Source: a virus
Virus record (IMG/VR): IMGVR_UViG_3300045581_000270
Coordinates: 1-34,908 of that record
Length of the DNA stretch: 34,908 nt
Reading direction: 5' to 3' (one strand)
In this document: in pieces, positions 1,645-26,118 of the stretch
Layout: each line of letters starts with the position of its first letter
How positions within the stretch are numbered: position 1 is the first letter of the stretch
Notes under the pieces: model-generated
Seen by the model: only the letters and a program-made list of their open reading frames with translations
Told to the model about the DNA's origin: nothing
Databases searched by the model: none
Program-made: the position numbers and the translations under genes

Positions 1645-1671
1645 TGTTAGCCCCCTGCTTGATTGTTTGTC

Positions 1672-1694
1672 AGGCGTCGCACCTTGCGTTGCCT
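1672..1694 (-). promoter_or_regulatory. 5'-terminal leader hairpin with AGG loop (copy 1)
   Basis: The transcript begins with a hairpin: outer stem AGGC/GCCT, a 2x2 internal loop, inner stem CGCA/TGCG and an AGG triloop. It starts 7 bases after the -10 box at 1702-1707, so it is the 5' end of the message. The same GCA(AGG)TGC core appears in other leaders here (2220-2240, 13003-13023), which suggests a shared RNA regulatory element. Confidence 0.6.
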
Positions 1695-1701
1695 GTGTGA
1701 G

Positions 1702-1730
1702 AGATTATCGACTGTTTCCAGTTATGTCAA
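1702..1730 (-). promoter_or_regulatory. sigma70-type promoter (TTGACA-17-TAATCT)
   Basis: The -35 box TTGACA lies at 1725-1730 and the -10 box TAATCT at 1702-1707, with a 17-bp spacer. The spacer contains GGAAAC, shared with the promoters at 2248 and (as GAAAC) 13511. It drives the 110-aa gene at 1312-1644. Confidence 0.75.
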
Positions 1731-2047: not shown

Positions 2048-2083
2048 CGCGTTAGCCCCTTGCTTTGATTGTGTGTCGGCCAA

Positions 2084-2197: not shown

Positions 2198-2219
2198 GAT
2201 TGCACCTTGCATTGTTTTT

Positions 2220-2240
2220 CCGGCTGCACCTTGCTGCCGG
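2220..2240 (-). promoter_or_regulatory. 5'-terminal leader hairpin with AGG loop (copy 2)
   Basis: A 5-bp outer stem (CCGGC/GCCGG), one A-A mismatch, inner stem GCA/TGC and an AGG triloop. It begins 7 bases after the -10 box, at the expected transcript start. The inner part is identical to the copy at 13003-13023 while the outer stem pairs differ, so pairing is kept while the sequence changes. A second bare GCAAGGTGC (2206-2214) sits at the ribosome site downstream. Confidence 0.65.
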
Positions 2241-2247
2241 TACGCAC

Positions 2248-2276
2248 AATATATCGACCGTTTCCGGTTGTGTCTA
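2248..2276 (-). promoter_or_regulatory. sigma70-type promoter (TAGACA-17-TATATT)
   Basis: The -35 box TAGACA is at 2271-2276 and the -10 box TATATT at 2248-2253, with a 17-bp spacer holding ACCGGAAAC, very like the promoters at 1702 and 13511. It lies just past the stop of the gene ending at 2316. Confidence 0.75.
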
Positions 2277-8257: not shown

Positions 8258-8651
8258 CATGATCTCCCGCAGTGCGGCGGCGGTCGCGTTCGGCGAGGAA
8301 AACTTGGGCCTGATCAAATGCTGCTGATTCGCCCAGATCAAGCCGCGAATACAACTCCCACGCCTTGCGTTCCAGCTCGGTTTCGACCATTTTGTCGGCG
8401 CCGGCAAAATGGTCTGCGGCTGCTTGTGACTGCTGCAGCCGTGAAAGTTCGGCCAGTGCCTTATCACGCTGCCCGATGATCTGCGTGATATTGTACGGGC
8501 GACGCGCAATTGACGATGCCAGCGTTTCCAGCCCGTACATGCTGGGGTGATACTCGTGCCACGCGCCAGTTCCCTGTTTCGCCTGCCACTCATCGCCCGC
8601 CTGAATCACCTCGCCAGGCTGCAGCTCTCGATATGCAATCTCATCCGCCAT
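8247..8651 (-). CDS. hypothetical protein, 134 aa
   Basis: It starts MADEIAYRELQPGEVIQAGD at 8651. Residues 1-35 resemble the small domain seen in many phage hypothetical proteins (YRELQPGEVIQAGDEW), which expects a beta hairpin. The rest is a long helical region (DKALAELSRLQQSQAAADHF) ending in a basic tail. The role is unknown. It is translationally overlapped at both ends. Confidence 0.65.
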   Translation of the reverse strand: MADEIAYRELQPGEVIQAGDEWQAKQGTGAWHEYHPSMYGLETLASSIARRPYNITQIIGQRDKALAELSRLQQSQAAADHFAGADKMVETELERKAWELYSRLDLGESAAFDQAQVFLAERDRRRTAGDHDAN

Positions 8652-8877
8652 TACTCGCCCCTTTCATTGTAAACGCATGCAATTCCGCAGCCGCACGATT
8701 GCGACTCAGCAAAAACGTCGGGTTGTAGGCGGCTCGACCGTATGCTCCACGAGCCGCACCACTAAAGACTCGGCCATCAGGTGACTGCACCGTGTAGCCG
8801 TGACTGGTGGCTGTCAGATAATAGCCGTGCCAGTCGCAGGCTTGCCCGCCAGCCGTCTCTCTCCATTCATACTTCAC
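8641..8877 (-). CDS. hypothetical protein, 78 aa, GTG start
   Basis: The GTG at 8877 lies 7 bases after AGGAG inside the end of the previous gene. The product (KYEWRETAGGQACDWHGYYL...) is aromatic and beta-rich, ending in a short helix. No family is recognised. Confidence 0.55.
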   Translation of the reverse strand: MKYEWRETAGGQACDWHGYYLTATSHGYTVQSPDGRVFSGAARGAYGRAAYNPTFLLSRNRAAAELHAFTMKGASNGG

Positions 8878-9850
8878 GGGTCAACTCCTGCTTGCGTGCG
8901 TCTTTGATGCGGGTCAAAAGCTTAATCGTGTCCTTGTCCAGCTTAGCTTCGCGAGCCAATCTATTAACCTCCTCCCAGACTGTCCGCAGTTGTGCCTCCG
9001 AGGTTGCTCGAACGATGTCTGCATGTGCATCACCGAGCAGCGTAGCATGCGGCGGGCTGAGCTTTGTTTGCAAGGCCGCAACCGCACTGAGAATGTCTGG
9101 CTCAGGTGCTGACTGCTGCTGCACAGGTCCAGCGTCAATAACCTCGATCCGTGCGTCAATCGTCGTATCGTCGGCCTCGTTGCTGTCCTCGGGCGTCATG
9201 CCAGCGGCGGACTGCACAACTCGCATCAGCTCCAGCAGCATCCGCCGCCGGGCTTTTGCGATGATTCCGTCGATGTTGTCGCTGCTGTCGTTCGAGTTCT
9301 TAAAGAATTTGCACGGCAGTTTCACGCTGCCCTGCCCGGTAAACGCCACGCGGTACGTTTTGCCGTCGTAAACTGTGGACGCTTCGCCTTCCACTGCCCA
9401 CACGGTCAAGCCAGATTTAAGCTGCACCTGCATCGGGAAACCAGCGTTTGCGGCTGGCGGCTCGCAGCCCATTTGAACGAGCAATTTACGGATGCCCGCA
9501 TCCTTGAGATACAGGGCCGACTTCACGCGGCCGTGAAAAATCGCGAATTCCTGCCGCCCGGGCGTGAAGCCACAGAACAAAGCCATCGCCATAACTCGCA
9601 CGGTCTCGCGATTAGACCCCTCACCCACCACCTCAACCATGCCAGTGTCAGGGTGTGCCATTCGCAGCAGTGCCGCTGCAGCCTGCTCGGTTTGTGCCGC
9701 CTCGATCGCGGTAAGCAGTGCGTCGGCTCGGATCATTGCAGCTTCCATCTCGTCGCGTCGCTGAACGGCTTCCAGATACGCCTGGCGACCAGTTTTGCAA
9801 AGTTTAGTCAGCTCGCGGACTGTCGTTGTGGTTGTCAGTGCTGTTGACAT
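8867..9850 (-). CDS. putative recombination/ssDNA-annealing protein, 327 aa
   Basis: The ATG at 9850 has GGAGGAG seven bases upstream. The middle of the protein (GFTPGRQEFAIFHGRVKSAL to about residue 145) has the general look of RecT-like annealing proteins, where a phrase about a catalogued substrate is followed by a conserved strand pair. After it come IDGIIAKARRRMLLELMRVV and an acidic linker. The C-terminal 100 residues are helical. Its place with a VRR-NUC nuclease fits a recombination module. The match is by eye and weak, so the function is tentative. Confidence 0.45.
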   Translation of the reverse strand: MSTALTTTTTVRELTKLCKTGRQAYLEAVQRRDEMEAAMIRADALLTAIEAAQTEQAAAALLRMAHPDTGMVEVVGEGSNRETVRVMAMALFCGFTPGRQEFAIFHGRVKSALYLKDAGIRKLLVQMGCEPPAANAGFPMQVQLKSGLTVWAVEGEASTVYDGKTYRVAFTGQGSVKLPCKFFKNSNDSSDNIDGIIAKARRRMLLELMRVVQSAAGMTPEDSNEADDTTIDARIEVIDAGPVQQQSAPEPDILSAVAALQTKLSPPHATLLGDAHADIVRATSEAQLRTVWEEVNRLAREAKLDKDTIKLLTRIKDARKQELTREV

Positions 9851-10187
9851 TTTCAATCTCCTCCAAGATTGCTTTCAGTTCATCGTCGGTAATCTGCGGA
9901 GCCAACGCGGCTGCCGCCTCAAGTGCATTTCGTCTTGCGTCTATCCGCTGCCCTTCGGCTTCGCGCTGGGTGCGTGTCATCATCGTCTCATGCTGAGCAT
10001 GTGCCTCCCAGGCTTCGACCATCGACAGCGGCTTTTCGCCGTCCGTGATGGATGCGGGGCCGAGGCCAATACCCTGCAGTTCCGGGCAGATATAAGGACG
10101 GTCGTAGTCGTTGCCTTTGCCGTCTTCGCGGCCGTAGTATTCGGGCCGATCCAGTGCGGCAAATAGGCGGTCAACTGTTTTGAACAT
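9804..10187 (-). CDS. hypothetical protein, 127 aa
   Basis: It starts MFKTVDRLFAALDRPEYYGR at 10187 and overlaps the previous gene by 17 bases and the next by 47. An aromatic N-terminal part is followed by a helical, charged second half (TRTQREAEGQRIDARRNALE) and a TDDELKAILEEIEN helix. No family is recognised. Confidence 0.6.
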   Translation of the reverse strand: MFKTVDRLFAALDRPEYYGREDGKGNDYDRPYICPELQGIGLGPASITDGEKPLSMVEAWEAHAQHETMMTRTQREAEGQRIDARRNALEAAAALAPQITDDELKAILEEIENVNSTDNHNDSPRAD

Positions 10188-10407
10188 CGGTGGCAGCCTC
10201 TGTTATTTGCACGCAGTGCAGCGTGATAGGGTGCACTTCGATACTGTGCATCCTGTCCGTGTCATGCTCAACACATTCCACGACAGCCACCACTGCAGTC
10301 CCTTCCAGCGTCGCTCTGATTCGATGCCCGATCGATGGTATTACCTGAAACGCAAGCGTCCACCTCACCGTCGGCTCGTGCCTGAACACCACCCCTGCAA
10401 ACACCAT
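10171..10407 (-). CDS. hypothetical protein, 78 aa, nested in CsrA-like ORF
   Basis: The ATG at 10407 (MVFAGVVFRHEPTVRWTLAF) has GGAGGGG six bases upstream. It lies well inside the CsrA-like ORF in another frame, with about 140 bases of overlap. The product is beta-rich (LEGTAVVAVVECVEHDTD). No family is recognised. Confidence 0.55.
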   Translation of the reverse strand: MVFAGVVFRHEPTVRWTLAFQVIPSIGHRIRATLEGTAVVAVVECVEHDTDRMHSIEVHPITLHCVQITEAATDVQNS

Positions 10408-10579
10408 CGCCATCCCCTCCAGCATGAAAGTTCTCAATCTCTGCCCGCCACACGGGAACACTCCGCGGGGCCTCGATATGGATCGCCGTATGACTGCCCC
10501 GCGTTTTGCCGAGTGTCACGGTAATATTCGGGCCGATGCGGATTGCCTGGCCCTCTTTTCGCTTAATCGTTAATGCCAT
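10268..10579 (-). CDS. csrA: CsrA-like RNA-binding protein with unusual C-terminal extension
   Basis: Residues 1-52 match the carbon storage regulator fold. MALTIKRKEGQAIRIGPNIT corresponds to strands 1-2, VTLGKTRGSHTAIHIEAP to strands 3-4, and VPVWRAEIENF to strand 5 plus the start of the helix, keeping the key Arg (R45, E. coli R44). CsrA dimers bind GGA in hairpin loops of mRNA leaders and block or stabilise translation. Usual length is about 60-70 aa, but this frame runs to 103 with a Gly/Asp/Cys-rich tail that overlaps the next gene, as if a stop codon had been lost. GGAGG precedes the ATG at 10579. Confidence 0.75.
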   Translation of the reverse strand: MALTIKRKEGQAIRIGPNITVTLGKTRGSHTAIHIEAPRSVPVWRAEIENFHAGGDGDGVCRGGVQARADGEVDACVSGNTIDRASNQSDAGRDCSGGCRGMC

Positions 10580-10919
10580 TTGGCCTCCATCCCTCCTGAA
10601 AAATGCGTTGTATCTGCGGCCAATGATGCGGGTACCACACGTAGACTTCCGCGCGGCTCGCGTGCTGACATTGCAACGCCGCGAGCCATTCAACCTGATC
10701 ATCAGACGGTTTGTTTCGGCCGACTTTTAGTTCTGCGAAAATGATCCTGCCAGCCTTCGCCGCCACGACGTCGGGAAAGCCCTTGTGCCCCTGGATTGCT
10801 GTCCGATATCCACGGGCTGTTTTGGCGGGCCTGAAGTGGCAGACACGCCAACCGTAGAGCATGGCCAGTTGCACGATCTGGCTTGTGAATTCGCCTTCGC
10901 TCGGGCCGCTATTCACCAT
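10563..10919 (-). CDS. VRR-NUC domain nuclease, 118 aa
   Basis: A PD-(D/E)xK-fold nuclease of the VRR-NUC type. GHKGFPDVVAAK (44-55) supplies the PD pair (D50) and IIFAELKVGRNKPSDDQ (59-75) the ExK pair (E63, K65) plus the trailing Gln. The N-terminal SEGEFTSQIVQLAMLYGW is typical. Phage members are thought to cut branched DNA, and FAN1 relatives act in repair. Here it sits beside a CsrA-like gene and near a possible annealing protein. Confidence 0.85.
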   Translation of the reverse strand: MVNSGPSEGEFTSQIVQLAMLYGWRVCHFRPAKTARGYRTAIQGHKGFPDVVAAKAGRIIFAELKVGRNKPSDDQVEWLAALQCQHASRAEVYVWYPHHWPQIQRIFQEGWRPNGIND

Positions 10920-11127
10920 ACGACAGTTTCCTGATTGCCACCACCGACCGATCCCAGACGGCTCCAGATTCGCCGAGGAATCGCACTGGTCCGCGGGTGC
11001 TTGTGCCGCCTTCGTACGTACCAGCCAACTTGCTGCACGCCTCGCGGATTTGCTCAGGTGTCGGGTCGTGCGGTTTGCGGTCGCCGCCGTAGGGTAGCGG
11101 CTGCAATGGTTTACAAATCGTCTTCAT
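10909..11127 (-). CDS. hypothetical protein, 72 aa
   Basis: The ATG at 11127 (MKTICKPLQPLPYGGDRKPH) falls within the acidic-tail codons of the preceding gene and the stop is inside the nuclease gene. PTPEQIREACSKLAGTYEGG looks like one helix, followed by a basic beta-like end. The role is unknown. Confidence 0.55.
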   Translation of the reverse strand: MKTICKPLQPLPYGGDRKPHDPTPEQIREACSKLAGTYEGGTSTRGPVRFLGESGAVWDRSVVAIRKLSYGE

Positions 11128-11548
11128 AGTCATCGTCCTCCTCGAAGTCATCATCAAAATCATCATCATCGTCGTCGTCAGTAAAGTCCAACTCCACAGC
11201 TCGCTTTACCAGCTCTGCCCGCAGAATCAAAAACTCTTCTGGTGCAACAACGCGAATCGATGCGCGGTTATCCTGGATCTTGTCAATTGACACTTGGACG
11301 GGCGCGAATCCCTGCTTGCTCGACCCCGGCGGCCTCAACGCAATTTCGTCAGCTTTTACCTGCAGTCGCTTGCGGACAATCTCGCCACCGTCAACGCTAA
11401 TTTCCAGATAGCCGTGCGACCTTGCCCCGCATTCATAACCAACAACTACAGACTTTGCGTCCGGCTCGTCGAGCCGAATTACGATTTCCTCACCAGGCAT
11501 TCGGGTCAGCAAAACGCCTGGCTGTTTTTCGTTATCGTCACGATACAT
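11111..11548 (-). CDS. enlarged CsrA-like protein with insertion and acidic tail
   Basis: GVLLTRMPGEEIVIRL (11-26) matches CsrA strands 1-2. APVQVSIDKIQDNRASIRVV (82-101) followed by APEEFLILRAELVKRA matches strands 3-5 and the helix, with the RNA-contact Arg at R110. Between them lies an insert of about 55 residues not found in normal CsrA, and the protein ends in a run of Asp/Glu (DFTDDDDDDDFDDDFEEDDD). The acidic tail could mimic RNA or hold the protein off its targets. This is the second CsrA-like protein within 1 kb. The ATG at 11548 follows AGAGGGG. The fold call rests on motif order. Confidence 0.6.
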   Translation of the reverse strand: MYRDDNEKQPGVLLTRMPGEEIVIRLDEPDAKSVVVGYECGARSHGYLEISVDGGEIVRKRLQVKADEIALRPPGSSKQGFAPVQVSIDKIQDNRASIRVVAPEEFLILRAELVKRAVELDFTDDDDDDDFDDDFEEDDDYEDDL

Positions 11549-11614
11549 TTTCACCCCTCTTGCTGTCGCTCGCCCAGCCGCGGAACAGCTCCACGGATTC
11601 GCCGGGTTTGCAAG

Positions 11615-11926
11615 TTAGTCGCATTCGATCAATTTCCCTAAAACCAACTTGGCTTCGCGATACGCTCCGTCATGCTCATTTTCATCGCTGACAATGAAAC
11701 TTGCTTCGCGAATAAAGCGATCCCAAACTGTGATTTGCAGCGCCCCATCCTGCAGCACCGCCAGCGTCAGAATTGACCTGTTGTTCGTGTTGATATCGAG
11801 GCATTTTCCGAAGCATGTGATTTCAAGCGGCATTGTAACTTTTGCTGCCGTGCCACTGATTCGCCTCGCAATTTCTGTTTCGAATTGCTCTACGCATTTA
11901 TCATCATCATCGTCTGATTCTGTCAT
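11615..11926 (-). CDS. hypothetical protein, 103 aa
   Basis: It starts MTESDDDDDKCVEQFETEIA at 11926, behind AAAGGA. An acidic start is followed by a beta-rich body (AKVTMPLEITCFGKCLDINT, ILTLAVLQDGALQITVWD) and a C-terminal helix. No family is recognised. The gene overlaps a possible 47-aa ORF in another frame. Confidence 0.6.
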   Translation of the reverse strand: MTESDDDDDKCVEQFETEIARRISGTAAKVTMPLEITCFGKCLDINTNNRSILTLAVLQDGALQITVWDRFIREASFIVSDENEHDGAYREAKLVLGKLIECD

Positions 11927-12050
11927 TGTCTGTCCTTTCTGCACCATGCAAAACCACCTGCCGCACCTTGCAGCAGGCTCGCACAATCATCCCCCGGCAT
12001 TCGTATGCGGCGAGGATCAGTCGCCCAGACCGGCTCAGCCGATCCTGCAC
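11907..12050 (-). CDS. possible 47-aa basic peptide, GTG start
   Basis: The frame begins at GTG 12050, preceded by AGGGACCGC, which is the end of a 25-bp block that also directly precedes the 101-aa gene at 12390. The peptide (VQDRLSRSGRLILAAYECRG...) is basic and contains RACCK. The shared leader is the main reason to believe it. A hairpin of the AGG-loop type lies inside it (11958-11978), so the stretch might instead be the leader of the 103-aa gene. Confidence 0.4.
   Translation of the reverse strand: MQDRLSRSGRLILAAYECRGMIVRACCKVRQVVLHGAERTDNDRIRR
11958..11978 (-). promoter_or_regulatory. AGG-loop hairpin upstream of 103-aa gene (copy 3)
   Basis: A 5-bp stem CCTGC/GCAGG, one mismatch, GCA/TGC and an AGG loop: the same element as in the promoter-linked leaders, but with no clear promoter at the usual distance. 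It is about 30 bases upstream of the ATG at 11926. Confidence 0.5.
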
Positions 12051-12073
12051 GCGGTCCCTGTGCTGCGGGGGTT
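12049..12073 (-). repeat. 25-bp perfect direct repeat at a start codon (copy A)
   Basis: The block is identical over 25 bases to 12392-12416 and holds the AGGGA ribosome site. Here it precedes the GTG of the 47-aa ORF. Confidence 0.8.
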
Positions 12074-12084
12074 TGTGTGCTCAG

Positions 12085-12390
12085 TCAATATCCGAGCGGA
12101 TTTGTCGTCACCCATCCCAAATGCGCAAAAACTTCCGAATAAGTATCCGCACTCATTTCATCGCAATCCATTTGCCGGGACACAGCAATGAACGCGCCAG
12201 CGTCAACATCGTAAATCACCTCTTCGACCTCCCACTCATCACATTGGCACATATGCTTTGAGTCTGGGCAAAACCGAAAGCCGACGACTGGCGCAACAAG
12301 CAACATGACCTCCTTAAACACATCACGCCTGTGCTGCTCACCATCTTCGTCGCAATACGCAAACATTACGTGAAATAGCGTCTTGTACAT
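12085..12390 (-). CDS. hypothetical protein, 101 aa
   Basis: It starts MYKTLFHVMFAYCDEDGEQH at 12390 and has a Cys-rich centre (FCPDSKHMCQCDEWEVEEVI), possibly metal-binding. It is preceded by AGGGA in the 25-bp repeat block. It looks like a beta-sheet protein; no family is recognised. Confidence 0.6.
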   Translation of the reverse strand: MYKTLFHVMFAYCDEDGEQHRRDVFKEVMLLVAPVVGFRFCPDSKHMCQCDEWEVEEVIYDVDAGAFIAVSRQMDCDEMSADTYSEVFAHLGWVTTNPLGY

Positions 12391-12391
12391 T

Positions 12392-12416
12392 ACGCGGTCC
12401 CTGTGCTGCGGGGGTT
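12392..12416 (-). repeat. 25-bp perfect direct repeat at a start codon (copy B)
   Basis: The second copy of the 25-bp block, immediately before the ATG at 12390, so it is part of the leader and ribosome site. Bases flanking the repeat differ (GTGTGC against GTTGTTG). Confidence 0.8.
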
Positions 12417-12424
12417 GTTGTTGT

Positions 12425-12697
12425 TCAGTTGGCCTCGATGATCTCCACAAAGCCGAGTGAGACCACGCCGCCCAACAGCCGCAGAATGCCGACTGAGTGG
12501 AGATCTTCAATGTTCGGCTGGTGTTTGCTGCCACCAAACCAAAGCGAAAATGATTCACCCACATTGCCCCGCAAAACGTCGGGCTCCGCAACGATCACGC
12601 GGGCCAGTTCATTCGCGGACTCAAGGTCTGATTTACACTCGATCACCACGTCGTCCATCGGGAAACGTGCAATCACAAGGAACGTGTCTGCCTGCAT
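12425..12697 (-). CDS. hypothetical protein, 90 aa
   Basis: It starts MQADTFLVIARFPMDDVVIE at 12697 behind GGAG. A beta-alpha-beta pattern (ESANELARVIVAEPDV as the helix) ends in a hydrophobic strand. No family is recognised. Confidence 0.6.
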   Translation of the reverse strand: MQADTFLVIARFPMDDVVIECKSDLESANELARVIVAEPDVLRGNVGESFSLWFGGSKHQPNIEDLHSVGILRLLGGVVSLGFVEIIEAN

Positions 12698-12841
12698 AGT
12701 TCCACTCCAAGAAAAGAAGAAAATCCCTGTTCCCGTCGATTGGCGCTGCAGACAGGGGGAACTGCAGTCGATGGCGTCATGCTTAGCATGCCGAGGCTCT
12801 AACGGGTTACCTCCGGACCGGGTATCCGCAGCCCCACTGGG

Positions 12842-13156
12842 TCACTGCCGCGGAGTCCTCACGTGTGCCGACCGGGTGGCATTCTGCTGGGTGTCCGGCC
12901 CGGCAAAGTTCATTGTGCAAAGAATGCACCGACCAAAAGAATCACGATTGCCAAAGCTGCCGCTGCTGCTGGTTCCATTGTCCGCCTCCTTGCTTGTCGG
13001 TCCACCCTGCACCTTGCTGGGTGTTTGCGACAGAGTAGCTGCGGACTGCTGCTGTGTCAATTGCAGATTCGGAAAATTTTGAATGCGTCGCAGACATGGC
13101 TCGCAGGTCGTTATTTCCCACGGCTGCAGCGGCTGGCCGCATTTGTCGCAGTGCAT
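12842..13156 (-). CDS. zinc-finger-like protein, 104 aa
   Basis: The N-terminus MHCDKCGQPLQPWEITTCEP then CLRR gives a CxxC...CxxC zinc site (residues 3-6 and 18-21). The middle is Gln/Ser-rich and probably unstructured, and another CxxC (CILC) lies near residue 76. The ATG at 13156 has GGAG six bases upstream, but the ATG at 13213 overlaps the previous stop (ATGA) and is an alternative. A promoter (13032-13060) and a 22-aa peptide frame lie inside it, so the C-terminal half may not be a real product. Confidence 0.5.
   Translation of the reverse strand: MHCDKCGQPLQPWEITTCEPCLRRIQNFPNLQLTQQQSAATLSQTPSKVQGGPTSKEADNGTSSSGSFGNRDSFGRCILCTMNFAGPDTQQNATRSAHVRTPRQ
12910..12978 (-). CDS. 22-aa hydrophobic membrane peptide
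   Basis: The peptide reads MEPAAAAALAIVILLVGAFF-AQ, a single membrane helix. It has AAGGAGG seven bases before the ATG and its own TTGACA-17-TACTCT promoter (13032-13060) with the 5'-terminal hairpin. It sits out of frame inside the zinc-finger-like ORF. The signals are better than those of many accepted genes. It could be a small toxin-like or envelope-active peptide, which is speculative. Confidence 0.6.
   Translation of the reverse strand: MEPAAAAALAIVILLVGAFFAQ
13003..13023 (-). promoter_or_regulatory. 5'-terminal leader hairpin with AGG loop (copy 4)
   Basis: Outer stem CACCC/GGGTG, A-A mismatch, GCA/TGC and AGG triloop: the loop and inner stem are identical to copy 2 while the outer stem differs. 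It begins 8 bases after the -10 box and precedes the 22-aa peptide. Confidence 0.65.
13032..13060 (-). promoter_or_regulatory. sigma70-type promoter (TTGACA-17-TACTCT)
   Basis: Perfect -35 TTGACA (13055-13060), 17-bp spacer, -10 TACTCT (13032-13037). It lies within the coding frame of the zinc-finger-like ORF and drives the 22-aa peptide. Confidence 0.7.
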
Positions 13157-13171
13157 TGCATTCTCCAGTAA

Positions 13172-13194
13172 AGCCCGGGCTGGTCTCCCGGGCT
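13172..13194 (-). terminator. strong hairpin at 3' end of 80-aa gene, possible terminator
   Basis: An 8-bp stem AGCCCGGG/CCCGGGCT with a 7-nt loop, followed by TTTA. The T-tract is short, so it may terminate weakly or cap the ribosome site of the zinc-finger-like gene. Confidence 0.45.
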
Positions 13195-13209
13195 GCGTTT
13201 GCGCTGATG

Positions 13210-13452
13210 TCATTTAGCACGATCAAACGCCGCCAGCATGGCTTTGCGACTGGCAAACCGCACGAGCTTGTCTGCAAGAATTCGCGGGCGGACATCGTGC
13301 GGAAGGCGGCAAACAAGCTGCACGTAAAACGAGCGGCGGTCGGCGTGTGTCAGCTCCACTGTGATGTGATCAACACATCCGGAAGAAAAGGCGGTGCCGT
13401 CCGGGCAGGTGTAACTGTAGACGGTTTTGTGATCTGCTACTGCTGTGCTCAT
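13210..13452 (-). CDS. hypothetical protein, 80 aa, first early gene
   Basis: It starts MSTAVADHKTVYSYTCPDGT at 13452, with AAGGGG seven bases upstream in a structured leader. It is beta-rich with a basic C-terminal helix (ASRKAMLAAFDRAK). No family is recognised. It is the first gene behind the promoter at 13511 and should be an early gene. Confidence 0.65.
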   Translation of the reverse strand: MSTAVADHKTVYSYTCPDGTAFSSGCVDHITVELTHADRRSFYVQLVCRLPHDVRPRILADKLVRFASRKAMLAAFDRAK

Positions 13453-13480
13453 TTTTCAGCCCCTTGCCTTGTTTGTCTTG

Positions 13481-13505
13481 CGTCGTTCGCCCCTTGCGTC
13501 CGACG
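13481..13505 (-). promoter_or_regulatory. 5'-terminal leader hairpin with AAGGG loop (copy 5)
   Basis: Outer stem CGTCG/CGACG, a 2x2 internal loop, inner stem CGC/GCG and loop AAGGG. It starts 5 bases after the -10 box. The leader repeats AAGGGG at the ribosome site. Confidence 0.6.
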
Positions 13506-13510
13506 CGGGT

Positions 13511-13539
13511 AATGTAGACTCTGTTTCGGTTTGTGTCAA
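13511..13539 (-). promoter_or_regulatory. sigma70-type promoter (TTGACA-17-TACATT)
   Basis: Perfect TTGACA (13534-13539), 17-bp spacer with AACCGAAAC, -10 TACATT (13511-13516). It lies just after the late terminator and opens the early region. Confidence 0.78.
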
Positions 13540-13557
13540 AGCTAGGCTGGAACAAAA

Positions 13558-13574
13558 TTCCAAAAATTTTGGAA
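13558..13574 (-). terminator. AT-rich terminator after late genes
   Basis: An 8-bp inverted repeat TTCCAAAA/TTTTGGAA with a 1-base centre, followed by TTTTGTT on the minus strand. It separates the late gene block from the early promoter. Confidence 0.6.
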
Positions 13575-13594
13575 GTCGGTAGAAATGCAGGAAT

Positions 13595-14074
13595 TCAGGC
13601 TGCCCACCATCGCAGATCCTGCCCGGTATCGTGCACGATCACGCGCAGGAATCCCGCGTCCTGCAGGGCCTGCAGCAGGTCATCAGCCGTCAGGTTGCCA
13701 TAATACTCGCCGGGCCTCAATGGTCCGCCATCTATCGCACTGTGTGGCGTTCTCAGCGGTCCTGCGCAGGTGCCCAGAAAATAACCGGACTGCAGCAGCA
13801 GCGGACGGACTTGCCCCACGATTGCCCGCCATTCCGCGCAGTGCTCCAGCACCTCGCAGCACACGACGATGTCATATTGGCCGTCGCTTTGCCAGTCGAG
13901 GAAATCCGCGACGACGTCAACACCCGGGCCGCGTTGCCGGTCGATGCCGAGCCATCGCGCGTTCGGCCAGTGCACGCGAGCGGTCCCGTTGATGTTTAGG
14001 GAGCCGATTTCAAGCACTGCCAGGCATTGCGACGATCCGTACTTCTCCAGCCATTCAGCCGCTTCGCTGTGCAT
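13595..14074 (-). CDS. SAM-dependent methyltransferase, 159 aa
   Basis: A class I Rossmann methyltransferase: VLEIGSLNINGT (20-31) is motif I, LGIDRQRGPGVDVVADF (42-58) carries the acidic strand-2 residue, and YDIVVCCEVLEH (67-78) is motif IV/post-IV. EVLEH is typical of the Methyltransf_11/23 group that modifies sugars or small molecules. It overlaps the preceding glycosyltransferase by 20 bases and is followed by a terminator. It probably methylates a sugar added by the neighbouring transferases. Confidence 0.8.
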   Translation of the reverse strand: MHSEAAEWLEKYGSSQCLAVLEIGSLNINGTARVHWPNARWLGIDRQRGPGVDVVADFLDWQSDGQYDIVVCCEVLEHCAEWRAIVGQVRPLLLQSGYFLGTCAGPLRTPHSAIDGGPLRPGEYYGNLTADDLLQALQDAGFLRVIVHDTGQDLRWWAA

Positions 14075-22624: not shown

Positions 22625-23560
22625 TCAGGTCTCCAGCGCTTCGGTGCTGAGGAGGTGATCGGTGACGATAATCGGAATACCAAACGCATCCTGTGGGAAC
22701 GGAGCCGGTGCCCCGGTTGGATTGGTTGCAGTTCGGCTCTGCTGAAGCTGCTTCAGGCTGCGTCGGTTCATGACGAGAATTGACGGCTGCGAGGCGACCG
22801 GAAACTCTGCCAGCAGGCTGCTGATGAGGTCGTCGGTCAATCCCTTGCCGCTGTCTTCCGTCAGATTGGCAATTCGACCGACGGAATACTTTCCGCCCAT
22901 CTGCAGGGCGACCCAAACGCTGGCCGGGGTCCAGTAGGCCGGGTAAAACCCGGTGCTGCCAGCAACACGCTGAACGGTCGTTTCGCCGAGGTCGATGGTG
23001 TCTTTCGTCACCATTGCAACATCGTCAACACCGAGGCGCACAGCGTAGACGCTGGAGGCTGTCGCTGCGGTTGTGCCGCCTGCGTCAATCACCATGTCGT
23101 CGGCCAAAGCGTCAAGGAAGGTGCTGTTCATGAAACCCGAGAACCCGGCAGCATCGCCGCCAGTGCCCGTGCCGTAAAAGACCTGCTTTTCGAGTTTTGC
23201 CAGCATTGCCTGCAGGTGACGTGCACCTTCGCGGGCAATGTAGGCTTCCGGTCCACCGTCGCGCCATGCGTCGGCCACGGCCATGTCAACGGCAAAGGAG
23301 AAATCGGCGATCTTCAGGCTGACAGACACCACGGTGTCTTCGCTGTGATCGTTTTCGCGTCCGTCGTTCTCGGAGCGAAAGCCGACAACAGGGCTGCCCG
23401 TGTATTTGTTGTACTTGTGCGTTGTCCCGCCGTCAGCAGGGCTGATGCGGGGCATGCGCCCAACGGTGGGAGCAGCCAGCAAAAGGTCACTGGTGTTTGT
23501 GCGTGCGACATCGAGAGCGTCCGCCACGAAGTCGGCAATGGCTACGTAATCATTGGCCAC
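22625..23560 (-). CDS. major capsid protein, 311 aa
   Basis: It starts at GTG 23560, behind AAGGAGG. The sequence fits an HK97-fold capsid protein: an N-terminal arm, an E-loop-like stretch (YTGSPVVGFRSENDGRENDH), a spine helix (YIAREGARHLQAMLAKLEKQ), VFYGTGTGGDAAGFSGFM and a C-terminal P-domain (SILVMNRRSLKQLQQ... IPIIVTDHLL). It follows the protease gene. No strict motif exists, but the features and order are convincing. Confidence 0.82.
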   Translation of the reverse strand: MANDYVAIADFVADALDVARTNTSDLLLAAPTVGRMPRISPADGGTTHKYNKYTGSPVVGFRSENDGRENDHSEDTVVSVSLKIADFSFAVDMAVADAWRDGGPEAYIAREGARHLQAMLAKLEKQVFYGTGTGGDAAGFSGFMNSTFLDALADDMVIDAGGTTAATASSVYAVRLGVDDVAMVTKDTIDLGETTVQRVAGSTGFYPAYWTPASVWVALQMGGKYSVGRIANLTEDSGKGLTDDLISSLLAEFPVASQPSILVMNRRSLKQLQQSRTATNPTGAPAPFPQDAFGIPIIVTDHLLSTEALET

Positions 23561-23573
23561 AGTCTAGGCCTCC

Positions 23574-24701
23574 TTAGTTGCTGGCCGCGACAGGGCGGCC
23601 ATTGATGTTGATCCTGCCCAGCATTCCGGCTCGCAGGCTCGGTGCCTGCTGCTTCTGGGTTGTTTCGTGCGAGCCAAACGCAGCAGGCTCTTTTTCGCCG
23701 AGGTCAATTGCGGCCAGCTTGGCGCTCAATTCTGCAATCTTCGCGTCTCGGTCGCTGAGTTCGCGCCGCAACTCTGCAATCAGCAGATCCTGACATTCGG
23801 CGTAGGTCTTGCCGTCTGCGAACCACTCGCCACCCTTCGCGCCAAACGCAGCGATGAAACGCTTGCATTCAGCGGCGAAGTCTTCGCGCGTTGGTTGCGG
23901 ATCGGCCGGGGGCTGTGATTCTGCCACTGGCTGTTCCTTTTTGATCTTGAGGTTGTGGCGAGACAGAAACCGCTGCACAGCAGCCGCCACGCGCTGCGGA
24001 TCAGCATCGAGCAAACAAGGCTTTGGGGCTGCCGAGGACAAGCCCAAAGCGTATTCCATGAGGGCATCAGCCTCTTCAGCAATCTGCTGCCCGCGGCGAA
24101 ACAGGCCGTCGGGATTGGCTGCAGGACTATCCACCACGTCCGCGGCCCGCAGGCTGCTCATGCGTGCGTGTGGATAGTTGCTGCGGTTGAGTTCGTCGGG
24201 ACTCACAAACCGGCCGTTTGCAGTGTTCTCAGCGGTTTCGCGGTCGATGGCGCCACTGTCCACATCGAACACAATGGAAACACCAAAATCCTCCGGAGCA
24301 TCCTCGGCCAAGGTCATCACGTAGTCTGCCAAATTGCCGTCCGGAGTTTTGGTTGCGGCCTCAGCGAAATGCAGATCAGCCAGCACCCGATCCCCGCTCA
24401 ATCGTGCATTGTCCACCTTGCCAAGGTAATTGCCAAGGCCGTCGCTGCTCATACCGGGATGAGTGAAACGGGCCTTAAGCCCTTCGCTGCGTGCATTGAT
24501 AGCGTCCGCGGTTTGCTGCAGAAATGCAGCGTCTACCCACATTTCGTGACCCAATGCTTCCCCGCGAGTAATCACGGAAACGCCTGAAATCATGCCGTGC
24601 CCAAATCGCCCGCCGGTGCGGTCAACGCGGTCGGCACCTTTGGCCACCTTTGCACGAAAGTGCTTCAGCGGTGCCGCCAAAATCTCACTGGTCGTTGTCA
24701 T
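23574..24701 (-). CDS. prohead protease-like protein with scaffold-like C-terminus, 375 aa
   Basis: The N-terminal domain (about 30-215) has ARFTHPGMSSDGLGNYLGKV (His81) and EDFGVSIVFDVD (Ser142), candidate catalytic residues of a phage maturation protease. The C-terminal part (about 215-375) is helical and charged, with a heptad region (LIAELRRELSDRDAKIAELS) like a delta/scaffold domain. A protease-scaffold fusion saves a separate scaffold gene. The start at 24701 lies in the acidic-tail codons of the portal gene. Confidence 0.7.
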   Translation of the reverse strand: MTTTSEILAAPLKHFRAKVAKGADRVDRTGGRFGHGMISGVSVITRGEALGHEMWVDAAFLQQTADAINARSEGLKARFTHPGMSSDGLGNYLGKVDNARLSGDRVLADLHFAEAATKTPDGNLADYVMTLAEDAPEDFGVSIVFDVDSGAIDRETAENTANGRFVSPDELNRSNYPHARMSSLRAADVVDSPAANPDGLFRRGQQIAEEADALMEYALGLSSAAPKPCLLDADPQRVAAAVQRFLSRHNLKIKKEQPVAESQPPADPQPTREDFAAECKRFIAAFGAKGGEWFADGKTYAECQDLLIAELRRELSDRDAKIAELSAKLAAIDLGEKEPAAFGSHETTQKQQAPSLRAGMLGRININGRPVAASN

Positions 24702-26118
24702 CGTCGTCCTCGCTGTCGTCTTCGTCCTCGATGTCAATTGGCGTCGCCGTCGTCGGTGTCGCTGCGGCCATTGCATAGTCCAGCGTTACCCCGCGGCTGC
24801 GTGCGTATTCCTGCGCTCGCGCAATCGCGTCGATGTTTTCCTCAAACTCACCTCGCCCCGCTTCTTTGCAAATGCGATATGGGTTGTCCAGGCCGGCCCG
24901 AATTGCGTCCACGTTACCGCGGATCTCTTTGGCTGGGTCCCACCACGGCATCCCGCGGTGAACCCACTCGAATGCCAGATCGCTGATTGTCAGGCCAGCA
25001 GGAACCTGCAAGGCCCCGGAAATAATCCAGCCTTGATAAAGCCAGACGGTGATCTTGCGAAGAAATTCCGCCACGTCGTCCCGCTTGCTCTGACAGCTTC
25101 GATCATACAGCAGCCACGCCGCTCGGGAGCCGAAAAAGTTGGTGTGTGACTCGTCGTAAAAATTGAATGGCAGATCGAGCGACTTCAGGGCAATCGCAAG
25201 CACCACGCCGATGAATTCGCGGGTGTTGCTTCCGGGGTTGTCGGTCTTCAAAAATTCGGCCTTGTCGCCGGGGTCCAGATCGAGCTGCACTGGCCCTTTG
25301 CCGAAATCGACCTGATAGCCGTTTGCATCCGTTCCGCTCGCCATGCCCACGGAATCTTGAGCGTCGCGATAAAAAACCAGCGCAAACAACTGCTCAACCT
25401 TCATCTTCGCCAATGCGTAGTCGATGCCTTCGTACACATCGCGAAAACTGTTGATCGCCGCAGCCAGTGGGCTGATGCCTCGCACCTGGTCGAATCGCTC
25501 AAAATAACCATGCTGTACAATGCGGCTTGCTGCCACGTTGCGGGCAAACTCAAAGCGGCCATTGCCTACACGATTCCAAATTGCCGCCTCGGCAAGCCCA
25601 CCAGCCCGGTTTACGCGGATTCCGTTAATCCACTGAGAACCCTCTGCAGTCTCCACGTCTTCCGGCTGGCGAATGCGGTCAGCCTCAAGTGCCTGCAATT
25701 GCAGCGATTGCAGCTTGAGGGCAAATACGTCGCCGTCTTTCGTCCGGCACGCCTCGAACAGGCGAAGCATCTTGCGAAATGAAAACCGCCCAGCCGCGTC
25801 GCAGTTTTGCGGTCGCTGCCATTCGGTCATCAGCGTTTCAATTTGAGCGTCTAACGCAGCGTTTCCCGTTCGGCTTTGAAAATCGAACATGGAAACGTAG
25901 TCAAGATGCTTCCGAATTGCCCAGGCAACCAACGCAAAATTGCGGCTGAGGTCTCTGGCTGCTCCCAGCATCTTGTGCCGGTCGCCGTTTTTAAGCTCGT
26001 CGTCCTCGTGCTTCAAAATCGAACTGACAGCCTTTCGCTTGCCGTTCGTGCGAATGGCGTCGTAGCCCGACTGAAACATGCCCGCCATGCGGTTCCGCAG
26101 CGATTGGAGAGTGCTCAT
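24685..26118 (-). CDS. portal protein (lambda-type), 477 aa
   Basis: The ATG at 26118 (MSTLQSLRNRMAGMFQSGYD) overlaps the gpW-like stop (ATGA). The body has the lambda-B-like portal pattern: NFALVAWAIRKHLDYVSMFD, then LQALEADRIRQPEDVE and the RIVQHGYFERFDQVRGISPL stretch. The end is acidic (EDEDDSEDDDDNDQ). The dodecameric ring is the gate for DNA packaging. Confidence 0.9.
   Translation of the reverse strand: MSTLQSLRNRMAGMFQSGYDAIRTNGKRKAVSSILKHEDDELKNGDRHKMLGAARDLSRNFALVAWAIRKHLDYVSMFDFQSRTGNAALDAQIETLMTEWQRPQNCDAAGRFSFRKMLRLFEACRTKDGDVFALKLQSLQLQALEADRIRQPEDVETAEGSQWINGIRVNRAGGLAEAAIWNRVGNGRFEFARNVAASRIVQHGYFERFDQVRGISPLAAAINSFRDVYEGIDYALAKMKVEQLFALVFYRDAQDSVGMASGTDANGYQVDFGKGPVQLDLDPGDKAEFLKTDNPGSNTREFIGVVLAIALKSLDLPFNFYDESHTNFFGSRAAWLLYDRSCQSKRDDVAEFLRKITVWLYQGWIISGALQVPAGLTISDLAFEWVHRGMPWWDPAKEIRGNVDAIRAGLDNPYRICKEAGRGEFEENIDAIARAQEYARSRGVTLDYAMAAATPTTATPIDIEDEDDSEDDDDNDQ

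Follow-up and report, generated by a model that had tools for sequence, protein, structure and literature searches.

The leaders that precede a series of mostly small genes in the DNA analysed here very probably constitute a genuine RNA element family. We suggest, with a probability of roughly 0.45, that they form a portable post-transcriptional control element read by a pair of CsrA proteins encoded by the phage itself. The analysed stretch (the window) is a linear virus record of 34,908 bases, whose minus strand holds nearly all genes: helicase, primase and replication genes lie on the left side, terminase, portal, capsid and tape-measure genes on the right side. Homologues of the portal protein were found in five of 294 Planctomycetota genomes (42-47% identity, one 36%), and two, with 29-31% identity, were found among the 194 Verrucomicrobiota genomes searched. 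A planctomycete is a likely host for the window phage, and Planctomycetota are probably the hosts of the leader-bearing phages, which form a small clade and are uncultured.

Table 1. CsrA-family genes and leader elements of the window (loops in brackets)
Feature	Position	Strand	Sequence or build	Remarks
CsrA1	10268..10579	-	103 aa; CsrA domain = residues 3-49	type B CsrA paralogue
CsrA2	11111..11548	-	145 aa; b1-b2, ~58-aa insert, b3-b5, acidic tail	enlarged CsrA-like protein
Type A CsrA remnant	11538..11624	-	28 codons, MRLTCKPGESVELFRG...	compared with MRLTRKPGESVELFRG of A2
Leader 1 promoter	13511..13539	-	TTGACA-N17-TACATT	sigma-70-type
Leader 1 hairpin I	13480..13506	-	GCGTCG-GA-CGC[AAGGG]GCG-AA-CGACGC	
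Leader 1 element II	13458..13468	-	GGC[AAGGG]GCT	at ribosome site; start codon 13452, 80-aa gene
Leader 2 promoter	13032..13060	-	TTGACA-N17-TACTCT	
Leader 2 hairpin I	13003..13023	-	CACCC-A-GC[AAGGT]GC-A-GGGTG	type II
Leader 2 element II	12984..12993	-	GCAAGGAGGC	start codon 12978, 22-aa peptide gene 12910-12978
Leader 3 hairpin I	11956..11978	-	GCCTGC-T-GC[AAGGT]GC-G-GCAGGT	type III, no promoter, heads csrA operon
Leader 3 element II	11938..11952	-	TTTGC[ATGGT]GCAGA	immediately 5′ of ribosome site
Leader 4 promoter	2248..2276	-	TAGACA-N17-TATATT	
Leader 4 hairpin I	2220..2240	-	CCGGC-A-GC[AAGGT]GC-A-GCCGG	
Leader 4 element II	2201..2211	-	TGC[AAGGT]GCA	start codon 2197, 37-aa gene
Leader 5 promoter	1702..1730	-	TTGACA-N17-TAATCT	
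Leader 5 hairpin I	1671..1695	-	CAGGC-AA-CGC[AAGGT]GCG-AC-GCCTG	
Leader 5 element II	1649..1659	-	AGC[AGGGG]GCT	start codon 1644, 110-aa gene
Lone element II	2054..2064	-	AGC[AAGGG]GCT	start codon 2047, 99-aa gene

In hairpin I of the leaders an outer stem of 3-6 pairs is followed by a small symmetric internal loop and then by an inner (C)GC/GC(G) stem, which carries the loop AAGGU or AAGGG. Element II, AGC[AAGGG]GCU or similar, follows 12-21 nt later (measured between the 9-mers). Four window leaders trail a TTGACA/TAGACA-N17-TAnnnT promoter, and their hairpin I starts a few bases from the expected transcription start. The preliminary description had noticed CAAGG in a hairpin loop and again at the ribosome site of several leaders; this holds for at least five genes of the window and exceeds chance, as GCAAGG[GT]GC occurs nine times, compared with 1.43 +/- 1.22 in shuffled sequence (0 of 100 shuffles reached nine). 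Eight of the nine copies are on the minus (coding) strand shortly 5′ of start codons. With a covariance model of the leader, five places in the window scored 39-58 bits, values that are high by construction because all five were among the 16 training sequences; a sixth, untrained place scored 18.5 bits. The promoter spacers at 1702-1730, 2248-2276 and 13511-13539 (minus strand) have in common a CNAACNGGAAACNGTCGA-like sequence that is partly dyad-symmetric and may be the operator of a phage repressor.

A pattern derived from the window leaders was run over 2.9 million viral contigs and returned 24 stretches; the matches retained were viral only and needed a promoter, a hairpin and a start codon. 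Besides the window, 11 records had every part in place, from promoter and hairpin to second element and open reading frame; one of them contains nine copies. Altogether 43 copies (39 distinct) were collected from 12 records, the window included, before at least 21 gene families. Directly at a sigma-70-type promoter begin 39 of the 43, and the remaining four are intergenic copies without promoter, which head the csrA operon. The sigma-70-like -10 box ends 13-15 nt 5′ of GCAAGG in 38 copies. One gene may carry differing stem versions in different phages and one version may precede different genes; the cassette therefore moves independently of the gene. No Rfam family reached its gathering score in the window, and none matched at E<=1 in 1500-2400 and 11500-13620.

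Several sets of candidates were rejected. Matches to a loose two-site pattern were due to chance and mostly intragenic; a stricter leader pattern, run on 84,980 bacterial and archaeal species genomes, also yielded chance matches, mostly within genes. Four type II pattern matches (L375-L378), in records without CsrA, were coding coincidences, and the single match of the leader model among 199 Planctomycetota genomes resembled coding sequence.

Three types of leader could be distinguished. In types I and II element II lies at the ribosome site. Type I is found upstream of varied small genes, whereas type II precedes a conserved, membrane-like peptide of 22 residues in nine records and has GCAAGGAGGC as its element II. 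The type III leader has no promoter: it is intergenic, opens the operon with the csrA genes, and is not at a 5′ end. Its element II sits just 5′ of the ribosome site and is kept although it is not the Shine-Dalgarno sequence itself. This layout argues that the element acts through the mRNA rather than by changing promoter activity.

Two further features of this region were recorded. The hydrophobic peptide encoded at 12910-12978 (minus strand; MEPAAAAALAIVILLVGAFFAQ, 22-23 residues) has a type II leader each time in the nine records; the ~200 nt that follow its gene (12720-12909, minus strand) are non-coding, conserved in eight records and mostly end in a terminator-like hairpin and a T run (CCCTGT...ACAGGGATTTTCTTC), and may be transcribed from the leader 2 promoter as a small or structured RNA. 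A 30-nt direct repeat (ACCCCCGCAGCACAGGGACCGCGT, minus strand) lies at 12049-12078 and 12392-12421, once before a gene and once more in an intergenic position, and is also present in G049 and G053.

The structural claim was examined by covariation. The leaders had been found via the loop sequence, the stems not being part of the search pattern. In the ungapped alignment of 36 distinct hairpins covariation was 0.350, compared with a mean of 0.098 (sd 0.019) in 500 column shuffles and at most 0.091 in slid alignment controls. The pair at alignment columns 8-26, seven positions below the loop, is formed in 35 of the 36 hairpins, as C-G in 19 and as G-C in 14. All 36 have a C-G closing pair and an adjoining G-C pair, and AAGG is invariant. 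The loop reads AAGGU in 36 of 39 hairpins; its last base is U, G or, once, C, and never A. The invariance of the loop and of its closing pairs is partly a selection effect of the search pattern, to which the loop belonged; a covariance-model search that tolerated deviations added just weak or partial members (15-20 bits). Because the stems have been replaced while AAGG, the closing pairs and, mostly, the U stayed fixed, a factor reading the loop is the simplest interpretation. Folding energies of single hairpins were modestly better than those of flank-shuffled sequences for the type with a 3x3 internal loop, and for this reason the structural claim rests on covariation and not on energies. 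Element II shows little covariation of its own and must be conserved partly as a ribosome site.

The facts about CsrA quoted in the preliminary description are in line with the literature: the SELEX consensus is RUACARGGAUGU, GGA is presented in loops and there are two sites per leader (PMC7652899). A CsrA dimer bridges sites 10-63 nt apart (PMC7652899), a range that includes the 12-21 nt between the two elements of the leader. The pentaloop AAGGA is a high-affinity target of RsmE, from which the leader loop differs in the last base alone (PMC4005645). What the preliminary description overlooked is that GGA is missing from the hairpin loops: it occurs in none of 39 hairpin I loops and in eight of 38 second elements; among the window leaders only element II of leader 2 contains it. 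In the known CsrA and RsmE complexes it is the protein backbone that recognizes the bases of GGA, and these are not exchangeable (PMC4005645). As the loop never ends in A, either the paralogues have acquired a changed specificity or the reader is another molecule.

Both CsrA-like genes reported earlier, at 10268-10579 and 11111-11548, were found at these positions, on the minus strand. CsrA1 passes the curated cut-off of Pfam CsrA (PF02599; 48.3 bits, cut-off 27), and alignment to RsmE (2jpp) and to its orthologues in G046, G049, G050 and G053 revealed that it keeps the equivalents of Arg44 and of Arg6 in b1. Orthologues in the other phages are shorter, 61-68 aa. The last ~50 codons of CsrA1 overlap the next gene (10171-10425) in a different frame, and for this overrun, in the region 10171-10579, loss of the stop codon or an error in sequencing is possible. 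CsrA2 stays below the Pfam cut-off with 22.2 bits over 34 residues, to which its second half alone contributes; the match is partial because the first strand, VLLTRMPGEEIVI, is split off by the ~58-aa insert. Its b1-b2 and b3-b5 motifs (VLLTRMPGEEIVI and VSIDKIQDNRASIRVVAPEEFLILRAEL) align with the type A proteins and include the Arg44 equivalent, which is therefore kept in both paralogues, and its C-terminal end is a run of Asp and Glu. The EEI motif that follows the Arg44 equivalent is lost in the type B CsrA of the relatives. Monomer models of the two proteins had low confidence (pLDDT 49 and 56); the model of CsrA2 (pLDDT 49) predicts strands at 14-16 and 21-24, in the insert at 33-66, and at 85-114.

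The type A gene is intact in five other phages, and the window retains only its 28-codon start, which overlaps the stop codon of the preceding gene in the same way as in the relatives. The enlarged CsrA2, located 3′ of the remnant, apparently replaces type A CsrA in the window. With type A reduced to a remnant here, the pair is not simply conserved.

Next we consider how leaders and CsrA genes are distributed. Relatives were reached via the portal protein and the leader patterns; searches of IMG/VR with back-translated peptides of the two window CsrA proteins found no relatives, nor did a direct IMG/VR search with the protein encoded at 8867-9850. Each of the five leader records longer than 30 kb, one of which is the window, has two CsrA-family genes; among the leader-bearing relatives this applies to four of four above 38 kb, and a 20.9-kb record has one. 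In the remaining leader-bearing fragments, all below 22 kb, no CsrA gene was found. CsrA genes were absent from 34 of 34 unrelated long viral records that served as controls (chance matches to the pattern), and about 1.2% of phage genomes carry CsrA according to a published survey (PMC7366521). A search of IMG/VR with the type A CsrA sequence returned five records only, all five leader-bearing. Leaders and genes follow one another in a conserved order, from the type II and then the type III leader through at least one gene, CsrA A, a small gene and a nuclease-like gene to CsrA B. The relatives identified by their portal protein (46-56% identical) usually have one ordinary CsrA (seven of nine records above 28 kb; two in one record). 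The leader was not found in portal relatives with an ordinary CsrA, and on 39 portal-relative stretches the leader model gave nothing convincing (best E 0.04). The leader thus tracks the type A/B pair and not CsrA generally. As the leader records come from related phages, the co-occurrences are not independent.

Repeats of other kinds were also seen. A single-CsrA phage (L101, 6000-7560; G028, 23239-24790) has its own start-associated repeat, GACCAGGA(A/C)AACGAAGGGGACGAATGATG, which contains GGA and stands before at least four genes. Repeats in the portal relative G011 were rejected as another leader family, as they resemble integron attC sites. In a portal relative (L091, IMGVR_UViG_3300009370_000074; 8600-13600, minus strand) five attC-like repeats about 900 nt apart (TAACGTC...GTTATGC) look like a gene-cassette array within a viral contig.

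The proposal that phage CsrA controls the leaders is thus partly borne out: co-occurrence, two-site layout, spacing and Arg44 speak for it, whereas the loops have no GGA and other early genes co-occur as well. The early genes at 8867-9850, 9804-10187, 10909-11133 and 2316-2585 are also common to the leader-bearing phages (four long relatives), and association alone therefore does not single out CsrA. Another protein of the early block, or a host RNA-binding protein that is not CsrA, might read the leaders, with the CsrA pair directed at, for example, host mRNAs. We regard this as rather unlikely. It would draw on at least four further early genes without assigned function, and the constant U where GGA would have its A speaks against a standard CsrA site; however, none of these early genes resembles a known RNA-binding family, and the loop, the closing pairs and the two-site layout are all near those of CsrA sites. 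The CsrA pair is a plausible and the best candidate for the reader, on the grounds of association and layout.

A function without any specific protein is unlikely. In such a scheme the hairpin would guard the 5′ end of the mRNA and both AAGG copies would serve the ribosome, as a standby site or by pairing with the anti-Shine-Dalgarno sequence, resulting in strong early translation. In favour of this scheme, hairpin I keeps a constant distance from the -10 box and occupies the very 5′ end, AAGG is able to pair with CCUU in the anti-Shine-Dalgarno sequence, and in types I and II there is overlap between element II and the ribosome site. This would leave unexplained the invariant C-G and G-C closing pairs, the near-invariant U after AAGG and the second copy of type III, which is placed beside and not at the ribosome site, and type III, lacking a promoter, is not located at a 5′ end.

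Very unlikely, in our estimate, is an action of the promoter-plus-hairpin cassette on transcription, either as a nascent-RNA signal to the polymerase, comparable to the put hairpins of phage HK022, or as a DNA operator. The fixed distance between promoter and hairpin and the AACNGGAAACNGTC-like sequence shared by several promoter spacers would fit such a role, but the compensating substitutions in the stems show the importance of RNA pairing, four intergenic copies have no promoter, and the second element keeps its place relative to the start codon. The least probable reader is host CsrA, by which early phage genes would be tied to host physiology: although six CsrA genes occur in a Pirellulaceae genome and two in another planctomycete, and type II elements hold a canonical AAGGAG on a C-G pair, the GGA that host CsrA is expected to need occurs in none of the 39 hairpin loops, and related phages with similar head genes and probable hosts have no leader. 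The preliminary description had left the choice between the phage proteins and host CsrA open; the loops without GGA, the single-CsrA relatives without leader and the shared early genes make host CsrA the less likely of the two.

The sequences show a host-type promoter giving rise to an mRNA that has hairpin I, topped by the fixed apical motif C-AAGG-U-G, at its very 5′ end; the GC-AAGG core recurs 12-21 nt later at (types I and II) or just before (type III) the ribosome-binding site, and this cassette precedes many unrelated genes, mostly small ones. If the phage CsrA pair reads the leaders, the following mechanism can be envisaged. The two CsrA-like proteins would form homo- or heterodimers with an altered loop specificity, AAGGU instead of ANGGA. 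One face of the dimer would bind hairpin I and the other the copy at the ribosome site, and ribosome loading would be blocked. Early genes would then be translated right after infection and be shut down jointly as the CsrA pair accumulates; since the csrA operon starts with a type III leader, the pair would limit its own synthesis.

The leaders of the CsrA/RsmA/RsmE systems (glgC, hcnA) resemble this arrangement in having small CsrA-family proteins with Arg44, sites in C-G-closed hairpin loops, one site upstream and one at the ribosome site, and a spacing within bridging range (PMC7652899, PMC4005645). The phage system differs from them in its loop, AAGGU/AAGGG in place of ANGGA, in the divergent pair of phage-encoded paralogues in one operon, and in one uniform leader being repeated before many genes of the same phage. 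CsrA2 can be compared with RsmN/RsmF of Pseudomonas aeruginosa, a CsrA-family protein that also has an insert between b2 and b3 and an Arg44 equivalent; there the insert is a 16-aa helix (PMC3791407), whereas that of CsrA2 has ~58 aa with strands predicted at low confidence, and the protein has a long acidic tail. Among the csrA alleles of phages and plasmids, which likewise include CsrA genes carried by phages, the largest group are rsmM-type alleles of Pseudomonas phages, and in the portion of that survey available to us cis-acting phage targets are not described (PMC7366521).

The closest parallel in the literature is provided by cluster K mycobacteriophages with their start-associated sequences (SAS) and extended SAS, for which neither a binder nor a function is known: short conserved elements before the starts of many small genes of different families, distributed like cassettes (PMC3203893). 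About half of the SAS have an upstream inverted repeat (PMC3203893). The leaders, too, are repeats before the starts of unrelated genes with an upstream inverted repeat (43 copies, 21 families). The SAS are distinguished by the sequence 5′-GGGATAGGAGCCC, by inverted repeats of 17 bp and by no reported link to CsrA (PMC3203893), whereas in the phage leader hairpin I and the start element share a 9-nt core and a promoter is built in. The second elements of the leaders, AGCAAGGGGCT or GCAAGGAGGC, do not match the SAS consensus.

In summary, we tentatively picture a self-contained control of early genes, slightly more speculative than the pairing of leader and CsrA as such: two diverged phage CsrA paralogues recognizing AAGGU and not GGA, and a matching 60-nt dual-hairpin leader before many genes, including their own operon, would act as a global translational timer. 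If this is true, the phage carries a translational regulon for which it supplies both the protein pair and the cis element, and CsrA proteins can depart from the GGA rule. The pairing of leader and CsrA is a testable candidate for how start-associated phage repeats, such as those of the cluster K mycobacteriophages, may work. Even without the CsrA link, the leader represents a structurally supported family of cis-acting RNA that is absent from Rfam.
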